Assembly: GCA_944363925.1 (NCBI GenBank)
Contig: CALVVS010000008.1
Span: 1 to 37,303, forward strand
Source: an uncultured Bacilli bacterium
Lineage (GTDB): Bacteria; Bacillota_I; Bacilli_A; RF39; UBA660
DNA length: 37,303 bases
Reading direction: 5' to 3'
The translations under genes and the position numbers were made by a program. The notes under the pieces were generated by a model. It did not search any database, was not told where the DNA came from, and was given only the letters and a program-made list of their open reading frames with translations. Shown here piece by piece: positions 16,242 through 32,590 of the stretch. Each line of letters begins with the position of its first letter. Positions within the stretch are counted from its first letter, which is position 1.

Positions 16242-17189
16242 ATGTATTATAAAAGACGTGTTAAAAAAGGACCTATTATTGCGATAGTGGTGATTATTTT
16301 AGTTATTATTTTAGTAATATGTGGCATAAACTTATATAAGTATTATACTAGTGATGAGTATTTGCTTGGCGAGGCTGGATATAGTGAAAAGGAAATTAAA
16401 GAGATTTTAAAGTTTGATGAAAAGTATATTACTTATGCTATAGAAAATAAATATGAGGATGATTTTATTCCTTTGATCAAGGAAAAATATTTCCTTTGGA
16501 AGAACTATGACAATTATATTAAGTATATTGATGATGTTTATGGGGATAAAAAGGTTGATTATTCTAAGGTTATTTCTTTAGTTAATGTTGGAGCGAATTT
16601 TGAACCTTATACGCATACTAAAAAGACAGATATGGACAAAGGAAATGCGATTTTAGTTAATAAGTATACTTCACTTCCTGAGAAGTATGCACCTTCAGAT
16701 GTGGTGGAGATGAGTAATTGGTATTCTTATCCAGGTAATAGTATTAGAAAAGAAGTATATGATGCTTTTAGGGAAATGTTTAATGCGGCTAAGGAAGAGA
16801 ATTTGACTTTGATTGTTAATTCTTCTTACAGAACTTATGAGGTTCAAAAGGAAATATATGATGATTATGAAAGTAATCGCGGCAAAGAATATGCGGACAA
16901 ATATGCGGCTCGTCCAGATTTTTCGGAACATCAAACGGGACTTTCGGTAGATATTTTTTCACCGGGTTCAAATATGAGTACGTTTGAGGGAACTGACGAG
17001 TTTAAGTGGCTTAGTGAAAACAGCTACAAATATGGTTTTATATTAAGATATCCTAAGGGTAAAGAGGATATTACAGGATACAGTTATGAAGCATGGCACT
17101 ACAGATATGTTGGCAAAGATTTAGCTAAAAAGGTTTATGATAGTGGTTTAACTTATGATGAGTATTATGCTTACTATTTAGATAATTAA
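16242..17189 (+). CDS. VanY-type D-alanyl-D-alanine carboxypeptidase (copy 1)
   Basis: The 315-aa protein has an N-terminal membrane helix (about 10-30), a helical region (about 40-110) and a C-terminal M15B zinc peptidase domain. The metal ligands are in SEHQTGLSVD (His230, Asp237) and the catalytic Glu283 and ligand His286 in EAWHYRYVG. SSYRTYEVQ and KYAARPDFSEHQ are also typical. It should trim terminal D-Ala from wall peptides outside the membrane. TATAAT at 16221-16226 is a likely -10. The second copy follows after 10 bases, so the pair is an operon from tandem duplication. Confidence 0.92.
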   Translation: MYYKRRVKKGPIIAIVVIILVIILVICGINLYKYYTSDEYLLGEAGYSEKEIKEILKFDEKYITYAIENKYEDDFIPLIKEKYFLWKNYDNYIKYIDDVYGDKKVDYSKVISLVNVGANFEPYTHTKKTDMDKGNAILVNKYTSLPEKYAPSDVVEMSNWYSYPGNSIRKEVYDAFREMFNAAKEENLTLIVNSSYRTYEVQKEIYDDYESNRGKEYADKYAARPDFSEHQTGLSVDIFSPGSNMSTFEGTDEFKWLSENSYKYGFILRYPKGKEDITGYSYEAWHYRYVGKDLAKKVYDSGLTYDEYYAYYLDN

Positions 17190-17199
17190 GGGTGAGAAT

Positions 17200-18279
17200 A
17201 TGAGAAAGAAAGTATTAATAATTATAGTAATTTTACTTTTGGCGACTACTCTATTTTCACTTTTTTTCTTTTTAAATAAGGAAGATGATAAGAGTATTAG
17301 TGATTTATTAATGGAGGAAGGATATTCTGATAATGAGGTTTCGCTTATTTTAGATAAAGTTGCTGAAGAAGATTACGAAGATGTTTTAAATCTCGGATAT
17401 GATAAGAGTTTACTTGGGATATTATCAGCTTCGGGTTATGATGAAAGTAAATTTAATAATTACATAGAATATTATGTGAAGAATAAAGATGCGAATATTA
17501 ACGATATTATTACGATTATAAATTCGAGATATGATTTGGATAATTATCCGGCGAGTGCTTTACTAGCTGATTTAGTTAAGGAAAAATATTATATCAATGA
17601 CAATGTGGCCCGTTATTTAGATTATGGAAATAGTCATGATATAGGTGCGAAAAAAATAATTAGTTTGGTTAATTCGAAAGCTGATTTAGGTTTTTATAGT
17701 GAAAGTTATGATAGTGTTTTGGATGATAATAATTTAATTTTAGTAAACAAGTTTTATCATTTAAAAGAAGATTATATGCCTTCTGATTTAGTTAGTTTAG
17801 GTGGTCAATACAATCGAGGGGCAAACAGTAGGATGCGAAAGGATGCGGCAGAGGCTTTTATGAAAATGGTTGATGCGGCGAAATTAGATAATATTATTCT
17901 TTATAATATGTCGGCTTTTAGAAGTTATGATTATCAAGATAATTTATATAATAGATATATTAAGAGGGATGGCAAAGAAGCGGCTGATAAGTATTCAGCA
18001 AGACCGGGATATTCTGAACATCAAACGGGACTTTGCTCTGATTTGAACGTGATTGATGACTCTTTTGATGGAACTGATGAGGCAAACTGGCTTCGTGACA
18101 ATGCTTATAAGTACGGGTTTATATTACGTTTTCCAAAAGGCAAAGAGGATATTACAGGTTATAAATATGAAGCTTGGCATTATAGATATGTTGGAATTGA
18201 GGCAGCTAAGATTATTTATGAAGACGATATTACTTTAGAAGAGTATTATGCTTATTATATAGAAAAAATCTCAGATTAG
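17200..18279 (+). CDS. VanY-type D-alanyl-D-alanine carboxypeptidase (copy 2)
   Basis: The 359-aa paralogue of the preceding gene has the same ligands: SEHQTGLCSD (His274, Asp281) and EAWHYRYVG (Glu324, His327). The segment GFILRFPKGKEDITGYKYEA is almost unchanged between copies. The N-terminal helical region is longer (about 35-170) and contains repeated short units of the type GYSDNEVSLIL / GYDKSLLGIL / GYDESKFNNYI, so the copies differ mainly in their probable spacer or wall-binding part. GGGTGAG precedes the ATG. It ends in a bidirectional terminator. Confidence 0.92.
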   Translation: MRKKVLIIIVILLLATTLFSLFFFLNKEDDKSISDLLMEEGYSDNEVSLILDKVAEEDYEDVLNLGYDKSLLGILSASGYDESKFNNYIEYYVKNKDANINDIITIINSRYDLDNYPASALLADLVKEKYYINDNVARYLDYGNSHDIGAKKIISLVNSKADLGFYSESYDSVLDDNNLILVNKFYHLKEDYMPSDLVSLGGQYNRGANSRMRKDAAEAFMKMVDAAKLDNIILYNMSAFRSYDYQDNLYNRYIKRDGKEAADKYSARPGYSEHQTGLCSDLNVIDDSFDGTDEANWLRDNAYKYGFILRFPKGKEDITGYKYEAWHYRYVGIEAAKIIYEDDITLEEYYAYYIEKISD

Positions 18280-18293
18280 GTTCTGAGATTTTT
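18264..18293. terminator. Bidirectional terminator between vanY copy 2 and the surface-protein gene
   Basis: A perfect 12-bp stem, AAAAATCTCAGA (18264-18275) with TCTGAGATTTTT (18282-18293), encloses a 6-base loop that contains the vanY stop codon. Confidence 0.9.
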
Positions 18294-18831
18294 AGTATAT
18301 TCTATTAATGGCTCTTCCATCAAAAGTCATACTATATATTCCATCATTGGTTGAAAAATATATATAACTATCAATTGAAGTTAATGCATTGGCAGCATAA
18401 GAAGTTATTTTCTTAACGCCTCCATTTCCATTTTGTGCTATTCTATATATTCCATCATTGGTTGAAAAATATATATAACTACCGGTTGAAGTTAATGCAT
18501 TGGCAGCATAAGAAGTTATTTTCTTAACGCCTCCATTTCCATTTTGTGCTATTCTATATATTCCATCATTGGTTGAAAAATACACATAGCCGGCTATTGT
18601 TAACGCTTTAAAATTATTACTCCCCGATGCTGCACTTTTACAGGTATTATATAGTTCATCAATAGCTCCTTGTACATCAGTTGAGTTAAGTTTACTAGAT
18701 GTATTGTTATAAGTTACTTGATTACTTGGAAAGTATGTTACGGCATACACACAAGTGGTGCCACCAATAAAGACGCCTAATATTAATAAAAGTATTTTGT
18801 TTTGAAAAAATTTTTTTATTTTATTTTTCAT
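18292..18831 (-). CDS. TYFPSN-family surface protein with propeller-like repeats
   Basis: The 179-aa product has a basic start, a hydrophobic helix (about 13-30) ending CVYA, then VTYFPSNQVTYNNTSSKLNS and VQGAIDELYNTC (to about residue 64). The rest is a tandem array of 37-residue units: YIYFSTNDGIYRIAQNGNGG, then VKKITSYAANALTS, with two near-identical units and partial ones at either end. The YIYFS...GIYRI...G pattern resembles DUF5050/propeller repeats that display hydrophobic strands. Three units are too few for a closed propeller, so oligomerisation or length variation is likely. GGGAG precedes the ATG. It faces the XRE gene at 18951. Function is unknown; secretion or surface anchoring is inferred from the signal. 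Confidence 0.82.
   Translation of the reverse strand: MKNKIKKFFQNKILLLILGVFIGGTTCVYAVTYFPSNQVTYNNTSSKLNSTDVQGAIDELYNTCKSAASGSNNFKALTIAGYVYFSTNDGIYRIAQNGNGGVKKITSYAANALTSTGSYIYFSTNDGIYRIAQNGNGGVKKITSYAANALTSIDSYIYFSTNDGIYSMTFDGRAINRIY
18332..18588 (-). repeat. Tandem 111-bp coding repeat
   Basis: The 11-mer CTATATATTCC recurs at 18332, 18443 and 18554, exactly 111 bases apart. The first two units differ at only a few positions (ATCAATTG against ACCGGTTG). The third copy diverges after about 35 bases. The unit length equals 37 codons, so gain or loss keeps the frame. Confidence 0.9.
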
Positions 18832-18950: not shown

Positions 18951-19229
18951 ATGATAGCAAATAAAATTAAAATATTAAGGGAAAATAAAGGGTTATCACA
19001 AAAAGCTTTAGCTGATAATCTTGGCATTACAAGGTCTAGTGTTAATGCTTGGGAACAAGGCATTTCGGTTCCATCGACCCAATATATTGTGGAACTAGCT
19101 AATTTATTTGAGGTGTCAACAGATTATTTGTTAAATTTTAAAAATGATAAGGCTATCAATATAGATGGTTTAAATGAAAAAGAAATTAAGATTATTTTAG
19201 AATTAATAGAATATTTTAAACAAAAATAA
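18951..19229 (+). CDS. XRE-family HTH regulator
   Basis: The 92-aa product has a textbook Cro/C1 HTH at residues 4-60: KIKILRENKGLSQKALADNL, then GITRSSVNAWEQGISVPSTQ and YIVELANLFEVSTDYLL. A short acidic tail (NEKEIKIILELIEYFKQK) may dimerise. GGTGAT lies ahead of the ATG. It is divergent from the surface-protein gene at 18292-18831, whose control region holds a perfect palindrome, so it probably represses that gene and itself. A terminator follows immediately. Confidence 0.92.
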   Translation: MIANKIKILRENKGLSQKALADNLGITRSSVNAWEQGISVPSTQYIVELANLFEVSTDYLLNFKNDKAINIDGLNEKEIKIILELIEYFKQK

Positions 19230-19640: not shown

Positions 19641-20216
19641 ATGACAAAAATTATAGGGGCAAGAACTAGTTTTAAAAATGTAAATACATACGCTAACAGG
19701 GGGATGACGTTAGAGGCTGATTTAAAGGCTAGTAATGATTATTATCTTGTTAACGATAAAGCTATAATATATAAAAAGCCGACGCCAATTACGATATCGA
19801 AGGTTAATTATCCATCGAGGTCTGAGGCGGTTATTAAGGAAGGCTATTTTAAAACCCCATCAACGACTGATTATAATGGAATATATAAAGGAAAGTATAT
19901 TGATTTTGAAGCTAAGGAAACAAAGTTAAAGACATCTTTTCCTTTGTATAATATTCATCCACACCAAATTGAACATTTGGCTCACATATATAGGCATGGT
20001 GGTATTGGTTTTTTAATTGTAAGATTTACGGTTATTAATAAGACTTTTTTATTACCTATAGAGACTTTACTTAATTTTTTGAAGGAGACATCACGTAAAT
20101 CAATTCCACTTTCATATTTTGAAAAAAATGGATATATAATTAAAGATAAATATAATCCAAGAGTTGATTACTTATCTATCTTGGACGAGTTATATTTTAA
20201 CGGAGGTAATATATGA
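19641..20216 (+). CDS. recU: Holliday junction resolvase RecU
   Basis: The 191-aa nuclease resolves four-way junctions in Gram-positive bacteria. Seen are ANRGMTLEADLKASNDYYL near the start, then AIIYKKPTPITISKVNYPSR, the catalytic region STTDYNGIYKGKYIDFEAKE and HPHQIEHLAHIYRHGGIGF. The Asp/Glu/Lys metal-binding residues lie in TTDYNG and DFEAKET. Its stop overlaps the ponA start by 4 bases, the recU-ponA arrangement known from B. subtilis. Confidence 0.96.
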   Translation: MTKIIGARTSFKNVNTYANRGMTLEADLKASNDYYLVNDKAIIYKKPTPITISKVNYPSRSEAVIKEGYFKTPSTTDYNGIYKGKYIDFEAKETKLKTSFPLYNIHPHQIEHLAHIYRHGGIGFLIVRFTVINKTFLLPIETLLNFLKETSRKSIPLSYFEKNGYIIKDKYNPRVDYLSILDELYFNGGNI

Positions 20217-23200
20217 AAGATTTAGTGGCTTTTTTTAAGAAAGACAAGTTTAATTTATTAGTCCTTATTTTATCGATTGTGATTTTTATTATTGGAATTT
20301 TTGTGGTTGGTTTTTTAATTTCCTTTCTCGTGTTTATTGTTATTAACTTATTTTGGGTTATTCCGTTTTTTAAATGGAAAAAGAAGTTAGATGATCGTAA
20401 AAAGGTACGGAAGAAAAATAAAGAGGAAATTTTAGAAGAAGAGGCCGATAAGATTAGTGTGGCCTTAGAGGAAAGAAGTGAAAAGATGGCTAAAAAAGGA
20501 CAAGGTAAAGTTAAGAAAAAAGGAAAGACGAAGTTAAGCAAGAAAATATTACTTGGATTTTTGATTTTCTTCTTGATATGTATTATTTTGGGTATTGTTT
20601 TCTTTATATATATTGCAGTAACAGCTGGAAAGTTCGATCCTGACAAACTTTATTCTAAGGAAGCTAGTACTTTACTTGATAGAGATGGTGAGGTATTTGC
20701 GAAATTAGGAACGCAGATGAGACAAAAGATTGAGTATGAAGATATGAGTGAAGAGTTAGTTAATGCGATTGTGGCTACTGAAGATTCTCGTTTCTTTGAA
20801 CATAATGGTTTTGATTTACCTCGTTTTATGAAAGCTTCTTTTGGACAGCTTTTAGGTCAAAATGCAGGTGGAGCGTCTACTTTGACGATGCAGGTTTCTA
20901 AGAACCAGTATACTTCGGCGGTTTCTAGTGGTTTGCCGGGAATTAAGCGTAAGTTTACTGATATATATATTTCTATGTTCCAAATTGAGCCTAATTATTC
21001 GAAAGAGGAAATTTTAGAGTTTTATGCGAATTCATATTATTTAGGTAGTGGAGCATATGGTGTTGAACAAGCGGCGGAAACTTATTTTAACAAGGAAGCT
21101 AAAGATTTGAATATATCTGAAGCGGCTATGATTGCGGGATTATTCCAATCACCGGTTTCTTATGATCCAAATATTAATCCAGAGAAAACGGAGTCTAGGC
21201 GTTTAGTGGTTTTAAGTTTGATGAAGAGACACGGATATATTACTGATGAGGAATATAAGATTGCTAAAAAGATGACGGTTGATAAGATTGTTATTAAAGG
21301 CCGAAGTGCTCACCAAAGTAATGCGAAGTATCAATCATTTATTGACAGGGTGGCCGCAGAGGTTGCTGAAAAAACTGAATATGACCCTTATTCTTATTCG
21401 ATGAAAATATATACAACAATGGATAGAGAACAACAGGATAAGATTTCAGCGATTATGGATGGCTCTAGTTACAAATGGGAAAACGATAAAGTCCAAGCTG
21501 GTATAATTGCAATGGAAACTAAAACTGGTGAGATTGTGGCGATTGGTGGAGGACGTAATAAAACTGATGCTAAGTCTTTCAACAATGCAACGGATACGTA
21601 TAGACAAATAGGTTCTACGGCTAAGCCTTTATATGATTATGGACCAGCAATTGAATACTTGAACTGGAATACTGATCATCCAATTATCGACGATAAAACA
21701 ACTTATAGTGATGGTACAGAGATTAATAACTGGGATGGTAGATATAAGGGTATTATTACGATTAGACAAGCTTTAGTGGAATCACGTAATATTCCAGCTT
21801 TGAAAACATTTAAAAGCGTGCCTAATTCAAATATTAAAGAATTTGTAACTAATTTAGGATTATCTCCGGAGATTGCTAGCAATGGTATGCTTCATGAGGC
21901 GCACTCTATTGGTGGTTATGGCAATCCAAAAGATAAGACTGGTGAGTCGCCAATGACGGTAGCAGCGGCTTATGCGGCATTTGGTAATGATGGTGTATAT
22001 AATGAACCACATACATTTACGAAAGTCGTATTTGATGAAAGTGGTGAAACTTTTGAAAATGATTATAAGCAAACTAAGGTTATGAGTCCGGAAACGGCTT
22101 ATATGGTTACGGATATGCTTGTTGATACTGGTCAAAATGCTTTAGGTAAATATAATAATATTAATGGAGCTGAGTTTGCGGCTAAGACTGGTACGACTAA
22201 CTTTGATGAGAAAACGATGGAAGCAGCTCATTTACCAAGTAATGCAGTTAATGACTTATGGGTAGCTGGATATAATTCTGAGTATTCTATTGCTGTTTGG
22301 TACGGATACGAGAACAGAAATGATGGATATAACAGGTTTGGTTCAAGTCAAAATTCGAGATTATTCCAAACGGTAGCAAAGAATTTCTTTAGCAAGGATG
22401 CGAAGTTTGAAAAACCTGATGGAGTTGTTGAAGTTACGGTTGAAAGAAATACTGGTTATTCAATGCTTCCTAGTGAAAATACACCTAGTGATATGAAAAC
22501 TACAGAACTATTTAAAGAAGATAGTAAACCGACTGAGGTATCTGCTAGATTTAATACTTTATCTAATGTGACTGATTTAAAAGCAACAGTTAATGGCAAT
22601 AAGGCTACTTTGAGTTGGAAAGGAATTGCAACACCAGATGCTTTAAATAGAGATTACTGGAGTCCGTTAGTGGCGAAAGCGTTTGCTCTTTCTAAGGATC
22701 AAAGCACTTATTTATCTTATATTATGTCTTATAATAGTGGTAGACTTGGAAATGTTGTTTATAATGTTTATAGTAAAGATTCTAGCGGTTTAAAATTACT
22801 TACAACGGTAAGTGGAACATCGGCTACAGTTAAGCTTCCTAATACTTCATCACCTACTTTAGTGGTTAAAGCTAGTTATTCTAATTTTAATGGTGCTGAG
22901 AGTTCTGGAGTGGAAACTAAGGTTGATTACAAAGGAATTGATGTTAATAGTGTAGATATTGAAATAACTGGTGGTGATGAAGTTACACATCATATTGGTT
23001 CTACCTATATAGAGCCAGAAAATCCAGTAAAAATTACACTTGATGGTGAAGATATTACTGATGATTTTGATATTAAAATTGCATCTGTGGTTGATGTAAC
23101 TAATGGTAAAAATAAAGATATAACTAATAACTATGATACTGTTATTAATTCGACATGTGGAACTTACAAGTTTACTTATCAAATTACTTATCAAGGAATT

Positions 23201-23242
23201 ATGGTGGATACTGTAACTAAAACTGTCGTGGTTGAGGAATAG
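20213..23242 (+). CDS. ponA: Class A penicillin-binding protein 1 (PBP1A/1B type)
   Basis: The 1009-aa bifunctional wall synthase polymerises glycan and cross-links peptides. The order is: an N-terminal hydrophobic hairpin (about 14-53), a Lys/Glu linker, and the usual signal-anchor helix (about 108-133). The GT51 domain follows, with catalytic Glu190 in ATEDSRFFEHNGFD and GGASTLTMQVSKNQ. The transpeptidase has STAK (Ser468, Lys471), SRN (524-526) and KTGTT (658-662). Past about 790 come an FN3-like domain (VTDLKATVNGNKATLSW) and a final Ig-like domain ending TVVVEE. The extra N-terminal hairpin is unusual; most PBP1 proteins have one helix. It is cotranscribed with recU and ends in a strong terminator. 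Confidence 0.96.
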   Translation: MKDLVAFFKKDKFNLLVLILSIVIFIIGIFVVGFLISFLVFIVINLFWVIPFFKWKKKLDDRKKVRKKNKEEILEEEADKISVALEERSEKMAKKGQGKVKKKGKTKLSKKILLGFLIFFLICIILGIVFFIYIAVTAGKFDPDKLYSKEASTLLDRDGEVFAKLGTQMRQKIEYEDMSEELVNAIVATEDSRFFEHNGFDLPRFMKASFGQLLGQNAGGASTLTMQVSKNQYTSAVSSGLPGIKRKFTDIYISMFQIEPNYSKEEILEFYANSYYLGSGAYGVEQAAETYFNKEAKDLNISEAAMIAGLFQSPVSYDPNINPEKTESRRLVVLSLMKRHGYITDEEYKIAKKMTVDKIVIKGRSAHQSNAKYQSFIDRVAAEVAEKTEYDPYSYSMKIYTTMDREQQDKISAIMDGSSYKWENDKVQAGIIAMETKTGEIVAIGGGRNKTDAKSFNNATDTYRQIGSTAKPLYDYGPAIEYLNWNTDHPIIDDKTTYSDGTEINNWDGRYKGIITIRQALVESRNIPALKTFKSVPNSNIKEFVTNLGLSPEIASNGMLHEAHSIGGYGNPKDKTGESPMTVAAAYAAFGNDGVYNEPHTFTKVVFDESGETFENDYKQTKVMSPETAYMVTDMLVDTGQNALGKYNNINGAEFAAKTGTTNFDEKTMEAAHLPSNAVNDLWVAGYNSEYSIAVWYGYENRNDGYNRFGSSQNSRLFQTVAKNFFSKDAKFEKPDGVVEVTVERNTGYSMLPSENTPSDMKTTELFKEDSKPTEVSARFNTLSNVTDLKATVNGNKATLSWKGIATPDALNRDYWSPLVAKAFALSKDQSTYLSYIMSYNSGRLGNVVYNVYSKDSSGLKLLTTVSGTSATVKLPNTSSPTLVVKASYSNFNGAESSGVETKVDYKGIDVNSVDIEITGGDEVTHHIGSTYIEPENPVKITLDGEDITDDFDIKIASVVDVTNGKNKDITNNYDTVINSTCGTYKFTYQITYQGIMVDTVTKTVVVEE

Positions 23243-24610: not shown

Positions 24611-26281
24611 TTACTTAGTTTTTGTTTGATTTTTAATTAATGATTGATTTGTTTCATAGGTAACAATTATATTATGTTTGCCTTCTTCATAACCTTTTTC
24701 GATGGGATAAACTTCTTTGACGGTTATGTTATCGTATTCTAGATTTGGTTCAATTATTAATGGGGTTTCATATGTTTTATTAATATCGGCAGGAACATAT
24801 ATATAATACCAATATTTACATTCGATAAGTCCTAGTTTTTGAGCGGTTTGGATATCATAGTTCTCGCCGGTAGATGTATTATAGACGTAATCTTCTAGCT
24901 TTGATGCTTCATTTAACTGTGAGATTATTTCATATTTATTATCTAATATATTATATTCGGTAAAGATAGGGATATCTTGTTTTTTTAAGTTATCGACTTC
25001 TGATTTTTCAATATATTTTTTTTGAGCTATTGATATTTTGACAATGTTTTTTTCAAGAGCTTCTTCGAGAGGTATAATTTTAGAGAATTTAAGTGAAAAG
25101 TCATTATTTTTATTATTGAAATAGTTTTTATCAATATTATATGTATCAAAGATGATCTTTGTTTCATTATAGAGATAGCTTAATTCAGTTTCTTCATTTG
25201 TTAAGGTGTTATAGATTTGGTACAGATATTTATCAATTTTATTATTAAGAGTTTTTTGATTTTCTTCGGATAGATATGCGGGATTTTCCTGAAATAGTTT
25301 TAATAGTTCATTAGCATCTTCTTTTGGTAAAATGTCGTATATTTTGTTTTCGAAATCAGTAGTAGTGCCACTAAAGTTTAAGTTCCATATAGTTTCTTCC
25401 CCTATTAGTTCCATTAGGAATTGTAATCTAGATACAGCTTCGGTGTAGGTTATATTTGGAACATTATAGTATTCAGAGCTGATTAAAGAGGCACTGGCTT
25501 CTTTGATATATGAATATTCATTAAATGATTGCATTAGATGGATAAATTCATGTATTTTAGTATTATTATCTTCTTCATTAGCAAGATGAATTATATTCGG
25601 ATATAAATCAGAATACCAGCCTAGCATGTTTTCGTTATTTGGGTCATTTATTCCGACAGCAATGGTTATATCGGTCATTTTTTCTTCTAAGGATGAGTAT
25701 CTATCTTCGGTTACCGGATTTTGGGTTAGGTCTTCAAAAAAGTTTTCATTTATTAAAAGTTTTTTATCTTGTTCTGATAGATTTTTAGAATTAATAATAT
25801 ATTGTTTTAAATCAGAACTGGTCAGTTTTATTTCATTTGATTTTTTCAACTGATTATTTGTATAGTTAATATTTTGGTTAGTTATGAAAACTTGGTTTAC
25901 GGAACTAGTAAGCGATAATAATAGAGTTATGTTTAGACATATAATGCATCCTTTTATGGCATAGGTTTTTATATTATCTTTTTGAGCATTATTTATACAC
26001 AAAACGGCATTTTGACCATTTTCTTTAAAGAATTTTTCATAATTTTCTTGATTATTTTGATAAAAATGTTTATATCCTGTTTCTTCATCTAAATACACTT
26101 CATAAATATCTTTGTATAAAAATTTGGGCTTATGACAAGTTGTAAGTTCTTTAATTAAAGATGAAAAGTAATTATTGGTAGTGATTTTTTTATTAAATGT
26201 TTTGTAATAATTTATAATGTTACCGTTTTCATAGTCTACATATATTGTTTGGTTATTAATTTTTATTATTCCTAAATGCAT
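24611..26281 (-). CDS. Membrane-anchored putative zinc metallopeptidase (HEFIH family, copy 1)
   Basis: The 556-aa protein has no signal peptide at its start. A polar N-terminal domain (1-105; MHLGIIKINNQTIYVDYENG, TCHKPKFLYKDIYEVYLDEE, KENGQNAV) is followed by one membrane helix (about 112-133) and a large C-terminal region, probably outside. That region has IHEFIHLMQ (His244-Glu245-x-x-His248), then EYSYIKEASASLISSEYY with Glu261 as a possible third ligand: an HExxH-x12-E zinc-site pattern. Near the end is DIQTAQKLGLIECKYWYY. The paralogue at 27751-29484 keeps all these features. I recognise no named peptidase family, and activity is inferred from the motif alone. GGAG precedes the ATG. Confidence 0.8.
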   Translation of the reverse strand: MHLGIIKINNQTIYVDYENGNIINYYKTFNKKITTNNYFSSLIKELTTCHKPKFLYKDIYEVYLDEETGYKHFYQNNQENYEKFFKENGQNAVLCINNAQKDNIKTYAIKGCIICLNITLLLSLTSSVNQVFITNQNINYTNNQLKKSNEIKLTSSDLKQYIINSKNLSEQDKKLLINENFFEDLTQNPVTEDRYSSLEEKMTDITIAVGINDPNNENMLGWYSDLYPNIIHLANEEDNNTKIHEFIHLMQSFNEYSYIKEASASLISSEYYNVPNITYTEAVSRLQFLMELIGEETIWNLNFSGTTTDFENKIYDILPKEDANELLKLFQENPAYLSEENQKTLNNKIDKYLYQIYNTLTNEETELSYLYNETKIIFDTYNIDKNYFNNKNNDFSLKFSKIIPLEEALEKNIVKISIAQKKYIEKSEVDNLKKQDIPIFTEYNILDNKYEIISQLNEASKLEDYVYNTSTGENYDIQTAQKLGLIECKYWYYIYVPADINKTYETPLIIEPNLEYDNITVKEVYPIEKGYEEGKHNIIVTYETNQSLIKNQTKTK

Positions 26282-26505: not shown

Positions 26506-27207
26506 TTATTTTATAAATATACTATCGATAGCTGGTGTCCCAAAACCTAATTGATAGGTTAATAAGGTCTGTTGGTTTTGGCCATTTAAGTCTGCTCTAA
26601 TAAGATAGGCAGTTTGCGTACGGGTTGAACCAGAAGCTGATTCTCTATTGTATGAATAATATATATAATTATTTGTCACATATATATCACTGATAACGGG
26701 ATACCCATTACCTACGTTATATGTTAATAAGGTCTGTTGATTTTGGCCATTTAAATCTGTTCTAATTAGCCACGCTGATTTTGTACTAGTGCTACCTCCG
26801 CTTTCTTTATGATAAGAATAATATATATAATTATTTGTTACGTATATACTATCCATAATTGGATAATATGAGCCTTGGGAAATTTCTATTAATTTTTTTT
26901 GGTTTTGTCCATTTAAGTCTGCCCTAATAAGATAGGCAGTTTTCGTACTGGATGAACCAGAAGGTGATTCATAATGATATACATAATATATATTATCTCC
27001 TGATTTTATTGATGATGAACATGTATTATAAAGTTCATCTATTGCCCCTTGTACATTTGTAGAATTTAATTTACTAGAACTATTATCATAGGTTACTTGA
27101 TTAGAAGGAAAATAAGTTATTGCATATACACTTACCGTACTAAATAATAACCCTCCAAAAATAAAAATAAATATTTTACTGTTAAAAATTTTTTTTAATT
27201 TTTTCAT
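26506..27207 (-). CDS. TYFPSN-family surface protein with 54-residue propeller-like repeats
   Basis: The 233-aa product has a basic start, a hydrophobic helix ending SVYA, then ITYFPSNQVTYDNSSSKLNS and VQGAIDELYNTC (to about residue 66). Three units of 54 residues follow. Each unit reads NYIYYSYHKESGGSTSTKSA then WLIRTDLNGQNQQTLLTY, with NVGNGYPVISDIYVTN after it. The units are 162 bp apart in the DNA and have diverged more than the 111-bp units of the gene at 18292. The YIYY...LIRADLNGQN pattern resembles DUF5050-like propeller blades. AGGAGG precedes the ATG. It is divergent from a double-HTH regulator and lies between two HEFIH proteins. Function is unknown. Confidence 0.82.
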   Translation of the reverse strand: MKKLKKIFNSKIFIFIFGGLLFSTVSVYAITYFPSNQVTYDNSSSKLNSTNVQGAIDELYNTCSSSIKSGDNIYYVYHYESPSGSSSTKTAYLIRADLNGQNQKKLIEISQGSYYPIMDSIYVTNNYIYYSYHKESGGSTSTKSAWLIRTDLNGQNQQTLLTYNVGNGYPVISDIYVTNNYIYYSYNRESASGSTRTQTAYLIRADLNGQNQQTLLTYQLGFGTPAIDSIFIK

Positions 27208-27314: not shown

Positions 27315-27749
27315 ATGGAATTTAAAAGAATTAAGGCTATTAGAGAGGACAATGATTTAACGCAAACTGAAATAGCACGTATACTTGGAGTTAATAGAGG
27401 GGCTTATTCTTTATGGGAGCTTGGCATAAATACAATTCCTTTAAGTTACTTAAATGTTTTTTGTAATAAGTTTGAATTAAGTTTAGATTATATTTTAGGG
27501 ATAACTAATGTTAAAAATTATACTTTGGTTAATAATGATATTGATATTAATGTTTTGGGTAAAAGATTAAAGTTTATTAGAAAAAAAGAAAAGAGAACAC
27601 AAGAAAATATTGCGTCTCTTTTAAATACAACGCACTCTACTTGGAGTGCTTATGAAAATTGCAAGGTTTTAATTCCAACGGTATTTATTTGGAAATTTGC
27701 GACTGAGTATAAGTGTTCTGTAGATTGGTTATGTGGTAAAATTAATTAA
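27315..27749 (+). CDS. XRE regulator with two tandem HTH domains
   Basis: The 144-aa product has two Cro/C1-type domains in a row. The first (2-60) includes RIKAIREDNDLTQTEIARIL, then GVNRGAYSLWELG. The second (about 78-140) includes LKFIRKKEKRTQENIASLLN, then TTHSTWSAYENC and FIWKFATEYKCSVDWLCG. GGTGAT precedes the ATG. Two DNA-binding domains in one chain could read two half-sites without a dimer, consistent with the absence of an obvious perfect palindrome in 27208-27314. It is divergent from the surface-protein gene at 26506-27207 and converges on the HEFIH gene ending at 27751. Confidence 0.9.
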   Translation: MEFKRIKAIREDNDLTQTEIARILGVNRGAYSLWELGINTIPLSYLNVFCNKFELSLDYILGITNVKNYTLVNNDIDINVLGKRLKFIRKKEKRTQENIASLLNTTHSTWSAYENCKVLIPTVFIWKFATEYKCSVDWLCGKIN

Positions 27750-27750
27750 T

Positions 27751-29484
27751 TTATTTTGTTTTAGAAGTTTGATTTTGATACAGGTATTGATTTGGCACAT
27801 AATTTATTATTATATTATTTAAAGGATATATTTCATTAGTAGATGCACTTATATTTTCGATATTATTGTAAGGATCTAATAATTTTATTTCTGGTATATT
27901 TATAGTTATATTAGGAATATTTTCATATTTTTTTATTTCATCATATTGTATATTATAGAAAAATTTATATTGATAGTATTTTGTTTCTATGAGTCCAAGA
28001 CTTTGAGCTTCGGCTACTGTATATTGTTCGCCGGTATTATAATTTATAAAATATTGATTACCATTTTCATCAAATATTAATTCACTTATATTTTTATTTA
28101 AAATTATATATTCCTCATGTATTATATCATCGTTACTGATTTGTGATGGATCATTGGGATTGATGTAATTTTTTTGAGTTAATGTATACGATATATCTAT
28201 CATATTTTGGTTTAAAGCAATGTCAAGAGGAATAGAAAATTTATATTCAAAAGGGTTTATGGCATTTTCTTTATTTTTTTCATTGAAATAGTTACGGTTT
28301 AATAAATATCCTTTACTTGCTAGATGATTTGTACTGGAAATATCGGTTAAAAATTCTAGGGTTTCTGTATTTTCAGGAGCTAAAGATTTATACATTTGCA
28401 ATAAATAGTTATCTATTTTTTGGTTAATTTCATAGTTTTTTGATTGACTAAGCATACCTATACTAGAGGTAAATAATTCTAACAATTCTTCGGCATCTTT
28501 TTCAGGCAATAGGCTTTTGATGGCTATTTCAAATTCCCTAGTACTACCACTAAAGTTTAAATCCCATATGATGTCTGGTCCTATTATTTCCATTAAAAAC
28601 TGTGTTCTAATTATAGCATCGTTGTAGGCAGTTTGGTTACTATTATAATATTCATTACTAATTAAAGTTGCACAGGCTTCTCTAATATATTGATATTGAT
28701 TATCATCTTGCAGTAAATGGATAAATTCATGGATAGTGGTTTGATTATCATTTTCATTAACTACATGAATCTGATTAGAAATCATTGGATTATACCAACC
28801 AAGCACACCGTCAGCAGGTTTACCTTCTTGACCATATACGATATCTATATTAGTCATTTTAACTTCTAGAGAAAAGATTCTGTCACTAGTCATGAGGGTT
28901 GTAGACAGATCATTAAATAGGTCATTATTAATTAATAGTTGTTTTTCTTGTTCATTTAAGTTGGGAGAGGTATTGATAAAGTTTTCGAAAAAGTCGGCGT
29001 CTACTTTTTCATCTGGTATACTATATTCGATATTATTAGTTATATCAATTTGAGTATTTGTTTTAGTCGTTTCAATTGTATATATTGCGGATACGGCTGA
29101 AATAAAAGTTATAGATGATATGAAAATAATAAATATTTCGGTTCCTTTAATGATAAAGCTTTTTGAATTATATTTATTTTCATTTGATGCTTTATTTAAC
29201 ATGATAGCATTTTGACCATTTTCATAGAAAAATTTTAAATAGTCTTCTTTTCCATTTTTATAGAAGTGTTTAAAGTTGGTTTTTTCATCTAAATATACTT
29301 CATATTCATTTTGATACAAATATTTTGGTTTATGACAAGTTATAATATATTTGATTAGATTAATAAATATTTCATTTGGGATGATTATTTTTTTATCTTT
29401 GGTTTGTTTATAGCAACAAAGCTCTTTATTTTTAATATCAATGTATATTATATTATCTTTTATTCTAATTGTTCCTAAATGCAT
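27751..29484 (-). CDS. Membrane-anchored putative zinc metallopeptidase (HEFIH family, copy 2)
   Basis: The 577-aa paralogue of the gene at 24611 has the same plan: MHLGTIRIKDNIIYIDIKNK, TCHKPKYLYQNEYEVYLDEK and YENGQNA in the N-terminal domain, then a membrane helix (about 112-137). The C-terminal region has IHEFIHLLQ (His252, Glu253, His256), then QYQYIREACATLISNEYY with Glu269. TVAEAQSLGLIETKYYQYKF near the end matches copy 1. AAAAGGTGAAATT precedes the ATG, and the gene starts 11 bases after the cca stop, so it may be transcribed from the cca promoter. Its substrate is unknown; the neighbouring surface protein is the nearest candidate. Confidence 0.8.
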   Translation of the reverse strand: MHLGTIRIKDNIIYIDIKNKELCCYKQTKDKKIIIPNEIFINLIKYIITCHKPKYLYQNEYEVYLDEKTNFKHFYKNGKEDYLKFFYENGQNAIMLNKASNENKYNSKSFIIKGTEIFIIFISSITFISAVSAIYTIETTKTNTQIDITNNIEYSIPDEKVDADFFENFINTSPNLNEQEKQLLINNDLFNDLSTTLMTSDRIFSLEVKMTNIDIVYGQEGKPADGVLGWYNPMISNQIHVVNENDNQTTIHEFIHLLQDDNQYQYIREACATLISNEYYNSNQTAYNDAIIRTQFLMEIIGPDIIWDLNFSGSTREFEIAIKSLLPEKDAEELLELFTSSIGMLSQSKNYEINQKIDNYLLQMYKSLAPENTETLEFLTDISSTNHLASKGYLLNRNYFNEKNKENAINPFEYKFSIPLDIALNQNMIDISYTLTQKNYINPNDPSQISNDDIIHEEYIILNKNISELIFDENGNQYFINYNTGEQYTVAEAQSLGLIETKYYQYKFFYNIQYDEIKKYENIPNITINIPEIKLLDPYNNIENISASTNEIYPLNNIIINYVPNQYLYQNQTSKTK

Positions 29485-31114: not shown

Positions 31115-32590
31115 TTAAATAACAATAGCAAATAAATTCCCTGAGCCTTTATTAACAAGTTTAGATAATGTTTGTCTTAGTTTAAATCTAACCGTTTCAG
31201 GCATTAATGAGAGTTTGGCTTGTATTCCTTCTTGGACAATTACATCTAAACTGCGACCAAATATTTCACTTTTCCAGATGTTTTCACTACCAGCTTCTTT
31301 ATCTTTCATTAAATAGTTAATAAGTTCTTTACTTTGAATTTCTGATCCTATAATTGGTTCAAAGGTGCTTTCAACATCAACTCTAATCATATGAATTGAA
31401 GGGGCAACAGCTTTTAATTTAATACCATAGCGACTACCTTGTTTTATTATTTCTGGAGTGTCTAAGGTCATATCAGACAAAGTTGGCGAAGCAACTCCAT
31501 AACCTGTTTGTTTAACCATTTTTAAGGCGTCTTTAACTTGATCATATTCTCTTTTGGCTTCACCTAAGTCTTGAAATAAGCTAAGAAGTTGTGATCTACT
31601 GGTTATGTCAACACCAATGATTTCTTTTAATACTTCATTATATAAGTTAGCTGGTGTTTTTAAGGTTACCCTGACATTACCGGTTGCAGTATCGACTTCA
31701 GATAAATAGGCTTTTTCAATATATTCACACTCTTCTAATTTATTTGTTATTTGTTCGATATCTCTTAATTTATCTATTTCGTGAATACTATTTCTAATAG
31801 CATCAATATATGATTTTTTTAACCAATTATTAGGGTCTAGACAAGCAACCCAATCGGCCATTTCAACGTCTATACATACGACAGGAAATTCATACAAGGC
31901 TTCTCTTAAAATATTATAAGCATCTCTTTCACTCATGTTATCAATATTTATCGGTATAACTGGAGCATTATATTTTTCTTTAAGGTCTTCAGCTAATTTT
32001 TCTGTTTCTGGAAGCATTGGATGAGTAGAATTAACGACTACGATGAAGGGTTTTCCTATTTGCGTTAATTCTTCGGCTATTCTACTTTCCGCTTCGACAT
32101 AGTCACTTCTTTCAAATTCACCTATTGAGCCATCTGTGGTTACTAAGATACCGATGCTTGAGTGGTCTTTTATAACTTTTTCAGTACCTATTTCAGCGGC
32201 TTCAACAAATGGAATAGATTCTTCATACCATGGGGTATGAACCATACGCGGACCATTTTCATCTTCATAACCTTTTGCGCCATTTATGACATAGCCTACA
32301 CAATCAACTAATCTAACATTAGCTGAAAAGTCATCAATTTTAATAGTTGTAGCATTACTTGGAACAAATTTTGGTTCGGTTGTCATTATTGTTTTACCTT
32401 GTGCGGATTGTGGAATTTCATCTAATGTTCTTTTTCTTTCATACTCATCTTCGATGTTTGGAACAACTAAGTTTTCAATAAATCTTTTAATAAAGGTTGA
32501 TTTTCCTGTTCTTACTGCGCCTACTACGCCTAAATAAATATCTCCACCAGTTCTTTCGGTGATATTTTTAATAATATCTATTTTTTCCAT
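31115..32590 (-). CDS. spoIVA: Stage IV sporulation protein A
   Basis: This 491-aa ATPase polymerises on the forespore outer surface as the base of the spore coat. It has the Walker A GAVRTGKST (Lys30), VRLVDCVGYVINGAKGY as the switch/Walker B region, GPRMVHTPW, TTDGSIGEFERSDYVEAE and ADWVACLDPNNWLKKSYI. The C-terminus (LSKLVNKGSGNLFAIVI) matches the membrane-targeting end of the family. Length equals that of B. subtilis SpoIVA (492). A sigma-E-like promoter lies about 24 bases upstream. This is the best evidence that the organism makes spores. Confidence 0.98.
   Translation of the reverse strand: MEKIDIIKNITERTGGDIYLGVVGAVRTGKSTFIKRFIENLVVPNIEDEYERKRTLDEIPQSAQGKTIMTTEPKFVPSNATTIKIDDFSANVRLVDCVGYVINGAKGYEDENGPRMVHTPWYEESIPFVEAAEIGTEKVIKDHSSIGILVTTDGSIGEFERSDYVEAESRIAEELTQIGKPFIVVVNSTHPMLPETEKLAEDLKEKYNAPVIPINIDNMSERDAYNILREALYEFPVVCIDVEMADWVACLDPNNWLKKSYIDAIRNSIHEIDKLRDIEQITNKLEECEYIEKAYLSEVDTATGNVRVTLKTPANLYNEVLKEIIGVDITSRSQLLSLFQDLGEAKREYDQVKDALKMVKQTGYGVASPTLSDMTLDTPEIIKQGSRYGIKLKAVAPSIHMIRVDVESTFEPIIGSEIQSKELINYLMKDKEAGSENIWKSEIFGRSLDVIVQEGIQAKLSLMPETVRFKLRQTLSKLVNKGSGNLFAIVI

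Follow-up and report, generated by a model that had tools for sequence, protein, structure and literature searches.

A leader-sharing protein family of an RF39 bacterium with in-frame blade repeats and, probably, heads exchanged at fixed sites

The window, i.e., the whole stretch of 37,303 nucleotides that was analysed, belongs to the genome assembly of an uncultured Bacilli bacterium (RF39; UBA660). This genome, called the own genome below, comprises 1,439,722 bases in 111 contigs and is 76% complete. Close to the middle of the window a short gene with tandem repeats is flanked by two VanY-type genes and by a divergent helix-turn-helix gene. A second gene of the same kind is located at 26506-27207. 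The features are as follows:

6-149, (-): gene of the leader family, truncated where the window's contig ends (leader search)
16242-18279, (+): two VanY-type genes, one flank of the site (Pfam VanY for 17200-18279; 16242-17189 by similarity to 17200-18279)
18292-18831, (-): gene with the repeats, 179 aa, leader plus predicted three-blade head (open frame; blades from the fold model)
18637-18831, (-): leader, residues 1-65, a hydrophobic segment plus the conserved TYFPSN..VTY.N..VQGAIDELY common to the family
18478-18588, (-), along the gene 18588 to 18478: unit 1, 37 codons (base-by-base unit comparison)
18367-18477, (-), along the gene 18477 to 18367: unit 2, 37 codons (base-by-base unit comparison)
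18292-18366, (-), first base 18366, last base that of the stop at 18292: unit 3, equal to unit 2 for 35 bases and divergent from there on
18951-19229, (+): divergent helix-turn-helix gene (HTH_3, Pfam), marker of the site
19641-23242, (+): recU and a PBP1-type gene, farther synteny flank (RecU by Pfam, PBP1 by eye; both aligned in relatives)
26506-27207, (-): second gene with leader and blades, 233 aa, three units
27315-27749, (+): divergent helix-turn-helix gene at the second site (Pfam; aligned in G002 and G012)

The 179-aa protein starts with a hydrophobic N-terminus which is followed by a conserved stretch (TYFPSNQVTYNN...VQGAIDELYNTC) and the repeats. The hydrophobic segment, read by eye, is the one feature that may point to export or surface exposure; the small protein would be N-terminally anchored or secreted, and its head would be outside the cell. 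At 18332-18582 Tandem Repeats Finder reports a period of 111 bases (2.3 copies, 97% matches) with a score of 481, which tops the 14 rows that it lists for the window. Units 1 and 2 are identical in 106 of 111 bases. The 5 differences are all close to the unit edges, two toward the left and three toward the right edge. The longest exact repeat in the gene has 97 bases at a lag of 111, compared with a maximum of 19 and a mean of 9.5 in 200 codon shuffles of the same gene; a repeat by chance is thus ruled out. Tandem, near-identical units with a length that is a multiple of three, as expected for in-frame variable-number repeats, are present, here with 111 bases. Unit 3 equals unit 2 up to base 35; over the 40 bases that follow, 26 differ. 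At the two left-edge difference sites unit 2 carries the bases of unit 3; elsewhere it is unit 1-like up to the right edge. This combination of the left-edge bases of unit 3 with the body of unit 1 is the trace expected from an unequal exchange in an older two-unit gene. We infer that such a gene may have undergone unequal exchange within the shared stretch, and that three right-edge changes came later.

AlphaFold2, run on the single sequence of the 179-aa protein, returned five models, three of which are poor (mean pLDDT 34 to 38). The best one has a mean pLDDT of 66.3, with ten-residue means of 82 to 93 from residue 101 onward and a badly modelled leader. It contains 12 strands in residues 75-177, arranged as three four-stranded antiparallel blades, versus 2.3 repeat copies in the DNA. 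In a Foldseek search against the PDB, LDL-receptor-type propellers are on top (E 4.7e-6), and 29 hits have an E of 0.001 or better. VIA-align matches the model with the propellers of LRP6 (116 residues, rmsd 2.0) and LRP4 (113 residues, rmsd 2.5), both at Z 14.8, with the seven-bladed PDB 3s25 (Z 12.8, 106 residues, 24% identity) and with PDB 6r5z (Z 12.2, 102 residues), a nine-bladed propeller from three three-bladed fragments. The identity of the Foldseek and VIA-align matches as propellers was judged from entry titles. As shown by the model, the 111-bp units encode beta-propeller blades of a C-terminal head. The repeated four-stranded antiparallel blades of a beta-propeller are present in the predicted structure; a ring closed by at least four blades is absent, the chain having three. 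Searches with the 179-aa sequence brought no curated family over its cut-off. The best Pfam match is PorZ_N_b_propeller with 15.4 bits under a cut-off of 27; in NCBIfam a fibrinogen-like domain ranks first, with 26.4 bits where the cut-off is 30, and points in a non-propeller direction; and a sequence search of solved structures had an E of 0.33 at best.

The initial annotation had described near-identical 111-bp in-frame units, two of them complete and a third partial, in a propeller-like protein with too few units for closure. The near-identity stands, with 5 differences in 111 bases and the 97-base exact repeat in frame within 18292-18831. The propeller likeness with too few blades to close within one chain agrees with the three blades of the model and with propellers as the best structure matches. 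The description as two units and a partial third needs a correction: the model has three four-stranded blades, and both the third unit and what precedes unit 1 belong to full blades as degenerate parts.

The leader recurs in the own genome: 51 matches were found, with the best similarity in the N-terminal part, and 22 columns are invariant across 11 chosen members. Blade heads are attached to six of the 51 (L001, L003, L004, L005, L006, L011). DUF6273-like heads were assigned to 43 of the 51, some of them broken or cut, by a motif which falsely caught the blade gene L005. As for the remaining matches, L050 is cut by a contig end ahead of its head and L041 is unclassified. The Pfam cut-off for DUF6273 was passed by two of the three first-scanned DUF6273-like heads of the own genome. 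In the own genome DUF6273 is matched 41 times, and it was found in 41 of 44 genus genomes, 39 of them over cut-off. Seven genomes have a large leader family, namely the own genome (51), G026 (45), G012 (40), G004 (39), G002 (32), G065 (29) and G018 (23). Any leader-family match at all was found in 9 of 59 genomes of genus and class, a set to which G065 does not belong, and three of these have just one. The loci of relatives, 79 of which were kept from the best 80 of 183 matches, stem from GTDB genomes, that is, metagenome bins designated uncultured Bacilli bacterium. A scan of genome contigs with the whole 179-aa protein confirmed no relative, and an Rfam search brought a tRNA as its only find. 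A divergent helix-turn-helix neighbour is present, as counted by a crude regular expression, in 16 of 31 blade-class versus 10 of 51 DUF6273-class genes; this count takes the unrelated L096 into the blade class and misses the tblastn-found neighbours of L075 and L089.

Further forms of the family were observed. The window's contig starts inside the leader-family gene at 6-149, like several other contigs of the own genome. L163:3412-3621(+) and alike open reading frames in L095, L097 and L098 are leader-only, with about 65-70 aa. In G002 leader-only frames adjoin or directly precede full-length family members, and similar tandem leader matches exist in G004 and G065. L096, from 667 on in the (-) strand of contig C4 of G002, encodes a leader protein of 773 aa whose internal domains are of other kinds and whose end is DUF6273-like by eye; this makes three architectures behind the leader.

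At the site of the 179-aa gene the order is VanY1-VanY2, gene, HTH, recU, PBP1. The site was located in relatives through its HTH gene, which is present in 8 of 44 genus genomes including the own one (E 1e-20), and one genome was compared per species. G002 encodes 192 aa at this position; the leader is 86% identical over 65 residues and the head consists of three units, each of 39 aa and different in sequence from those of the window; 136 bases are repeated exactly. In G065 the protein has 115 aa and one unit of the G002 type; the contig begins at the HTH gene, thus recU is located elsewhere. G012 has 197 aa with three diverged units, and in G026 the array is split over two contigs with 75 bases in common. 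G018 combines the same leader with a DUF6273-like head in a protein of 334 aa. Pfam at E 1 gave no DUF6273 for the G018 protein and left it unconfirmed for L140 and L141; the assignment of the G018 head, and of L140, is based on a DUF6273 protein that shows 56% identity across 307 columns. In G004 the start of the head is DUF6273-like by eye and is cut by the contig end. The DUF6273-like gene of G031 has a different N-terminus and 14.6 bits, below the cut-off of 23.5. The assignments of L141 and L142 (14.6 bits under 23.5) were made by eye. Beyond gain or loss of units, to which the initial annotation was limited, the whole head is often replaced in one large leader-sharing family.

The second blade gene of the window, at 26506-27207, gives a model similar to that of the 179-aa protein, with one Foldseek hit under 0.001. 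No curated family is over its cut-off for this protein; Ldl_recept_b, the LDL-receptor class B repeat, is short by 0.2 with 20.8 bits under 21. The order at this second site is dnaD, gene, HTH. The three blades of the own genome are here represented in G012 by a DUF6273 gene (L147:10045-10983; 26.6 bits, over 23.5), and in G002 by a leader frame followed by a separate DUF6273-like frame (L146:9941-10588; 17.5 bits, below 23.5). The one-blade L117 was rejected as a syntenic partner of the three-blade gene at 26506-27207: the genes are alike, yet the compared stretches have no common flanking open reading frame. On either side of the second blade gene, at 24611-26281(-) and 27751-29484(-), related proteins are encoded which have no Pfam family and each carry a HEFIH motif, seen by eye, as in zinc peptidases. 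Further along, at 31115-32590(-), this genome of about 1.4 Mb has a gene which by eye looks like the spore-coat ATPase SpoIVA.

Unit number was compared at syntenic sites. Within the same head type at the VanY-HTH site, three units (G002, 192 aa) are opposed to one (G065, 115 aa), and the difference of 77 corresponds to about two 39-aa units. Another site has two units in L063 and one in L124, with a unit of 47 aa and flanking frames 73-90% identical. A third site, with common flanks and a helix-turn-helix gene, has one blade in G002 and in G012, two in G065, and three in G004 and in G026. The flanks of G002 and G004 are 93.4% (2711 columns) and 98.7% (1884 columns) identical in DNA, and the proteins are 67.5% identical over 114 residues including the leader. 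By blastn no head alignment past the leader was obtained for this pair; since the upstream alignment stops at the end of the leader, the head has been replaced or has diverged beyond the reach of blastn. A fourth site has retained three diverged blades in each of three genomes, the proteins being 70-94% identical, a constancy that counts against free variation.

Among the 28 leader-bearing blade genes that are uncut in the head, 15 have three blades, two have two, 11 have one and none has more than three. Blades were counted with a home-made profile and by eye, disregarding weak profile hits within the leader; L004, L011, L056, L066 and L116, cut in the head by contig ends, and frames under 105 aa were left out, and the genes sampled from relatives are mainly open frames under 280 aa plus best-matching loci. 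L119 has three units by eye with one weak profile hit past the leader, and the first blade of L073 scores -1.4 bits. L068 starts behind a stop, and L085, at a contig edge, is without a start. A profile search of 44 genomes, which also overlooked short blade genes such as L003, L058, L073 and L119, yielded no longer leader-bearing blade gene and a single longer frame, of 885 aa, in G007.

In five blade genes of the genus a contig end falls within the head. The cut ends of L056, L011 and L066 recur (75, 77 and 89 bases) close to the start of another contig; that of L116 recurs in its own contig (115 bases, lag 141), and that of L004 over 24 bases only. The contig end of L004 is absent from contig C15 of G000, which fits L011. 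As cut ends recur as exact repeats, short reads fail at such arrays and the counts there are not reliable. The array of the window was assembled through, with distinguishable units. The expectation that unit number is not fixed is borne out between species, with three versus one (G002/G065) and two versus one (L063/L124) at syntenic sites, and the accompanying concern about a faulty assembly is justified for the relatives, in which four of the five cut ends recur at 75-115 bases; a collapse is less likely for the array of the window. The cases are a warning of the breakage of short-read assemblies at these genes.

A different kind of variation is found in DUF6273-bearing sister genes. The own genome has two loci of diversity-generating retroelements with a reverse transcriptase and Avd, one of them also with a MutS-I-like gene: L081:4206-7506(-) and L080:3877-8735, in contigs C2 and C13. 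Template and variable region of L081 differ at 17 of 35 A sites and at 0 of 69 other sites (p 3e-10), those of L080 at 13 of 30 A sites and 2 of 71 other sites (p 1e-6). The L081 protein thus has a template match with changes at template A, and genes for RT, Avd and a MutS-I-like protein adjoin. The variable proteins of both retroelements are leader-family members. L046 is a likely second target of the L080 template, judged from changes at 8 of 17 A sites and 0 of 40 others over 57 bases. L034 and L036 are closely agreeing paralogs up to a C-terminal stretch in which they differ at AAC-derived codons; both partly match the L081 template, over 51 bases, and are likely targets as well, although a full template for the two was not found. 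The gene at 18292-18831 was rejected as a target: it is absent from the 14 best matches to either template and has no DUF6273 match. A literature search on diversity-generating retroelements in RF39 or Mollicutes had no result. Two related observations are an insertion-type transposase gene, recognised by eye, inside the L080 locus, and a third reverse-transcriptase-like gene, L082:2673-4409(+) in contig C31, with 578 aa and a family match over a part only.

We consider it rather probable that these genes, a multigene family within a single genus of uncultured Bacilli, encode blade heads on a shared leader, in which units vary in frame, heads are exchanged at fixed sites, and the products face the outside, perhaps as homo-oligomers. 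Blades would be gained or lost in frame through unequal exchange between near-identical blades. Whole heads would be replaced at set positions of the chromosome, with recombination via the shared leader and the flank as the probable route; recombination presumably is the agent of unit change and head change alike. A head of at most three blades, anchored or secreted, may then form a homo-oligomeric propeller, e.g., from two chains of three. Three blades cannot close in one chain, hence closure would need self-association. Laboratory precedents exist for such oligomeric closure, which for the heads described here we consider a tentative proposal, less likely than not. The head, held outside the cell, would be a variable binding or decoy surface, and variable recognition or evasion outside the cell as its purpose appears to us a possibility somewhat short of an even chance.

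Other readings have to be considered. The gene may be a remnant of a longer propeller gene which lost blades and makes no working protein, with the near-identical units as a transient by-product of slippage. The blades are indeed too few for a closed ring per chain, and broken family members exist, such as L068 behind its stop and the split L038 and L051. Nevertheless, open frames are retained in several genomes, three is the commonest number of blades (15 of 28), and the 44-genome profile search, which overlooked some short blade genes, produced no longer leader-bearing one; we regard a remnant as unlikely. Somewhat more unlikely still is an assembly artefact, i.e., that the array of the window is really longer and has collapsed, so that its count means little. 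Contig ends inside the heads of five blade genes, four of them recurring exactly, would be in line with such an artefact, yet the units of the window can be told apart in an array that was assembled through, and over-repetitive arrays seem to break contigs, not to collapse silently. Least probable is a non-propeller structure, in which three repeats close within one chain, with the beta-prism and the trefoil as examples of such three-fold folds. Three as the maximum and commonest blade number would suit such a fold, and beta-prisms, according to a passage in PMC6805158, also contain the propeller-type four-stranded meander. The top Foldseek and VIA-align rows, however, are propellers by their titles, and relatives with one and two blades occupy the same sites.

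We thus prefer blade heads that vary in number and kind on a common leader. Chains of one, two and three blades which occur naturally at the same sites of related species would allow half-built propellers to be tested as oligomers and as steps toward complete ones. The arrangement also suggests how a genome of about 1.4 Mb may maintain a large and changing set of exported proteins. A far-reaching extension, speculative and clearly less likely than not, is a combinatorial outside-facing repertoire in which a single leader is joined to two folds of head and variation arises along three routes (blade number, head exchange and DUF6273 heads rewritten by the two retroelements); heads with one to three blades would then be homo-oligomeric propellers of natural origin that are still being amplified.

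In bacterial surface loci of the repeat-number (contingency) type the unit length is a multiple of three, and unit number varies without a frameshift. The genes described here differ from these: the units are predicted fold elements of 37-60 codons, whole heads are swapped, and the differences are seen between species. Retroelement targets with DUF6273-type heads (PMC10743442) resemble the sister members of the leader family, whereas the gene at 18292-18831 is without a DUF6273 or template match; dispersed paralogs of retroelement targets are known from cyanobacteria, as stated in a section of PMC7517822. The seven blades per chain of the propeller-like PDB 3s25 (EUBREC_1955 of Eubacterium rectale) compare with three here. 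Recently amplified beta-propellers (PMC9218822) are alike in having near-identical blades per gene, in-frame amplification, and independent amplification in related proteins; what differs here is that a chain has three blades or fewer behind a leader common to the family, and that whole heads are replaced at fixed sites. Word searches in the text of this survey gave no mention of DUF5050 or 'three blades'. Alike too are the homo-oligomeric fragment propellers of PMC6805158. There, three-blade WD40 constructs self-assemble, from one parent to a nine-blade trimer and from another to a dimer thought to be six-bladed, and chains of one to six blades form rings (PDB 6r5z, 2yms). The likeness is that 6r5z matches our model; the difference is that those propellers were made in the laboratory, while here a predicted head is at hand. 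If the far-reaching extension is true, these genes would represent, in nature, the homo-oligomeric stage which in PMC6805158 is reached only by laboratory constructs.
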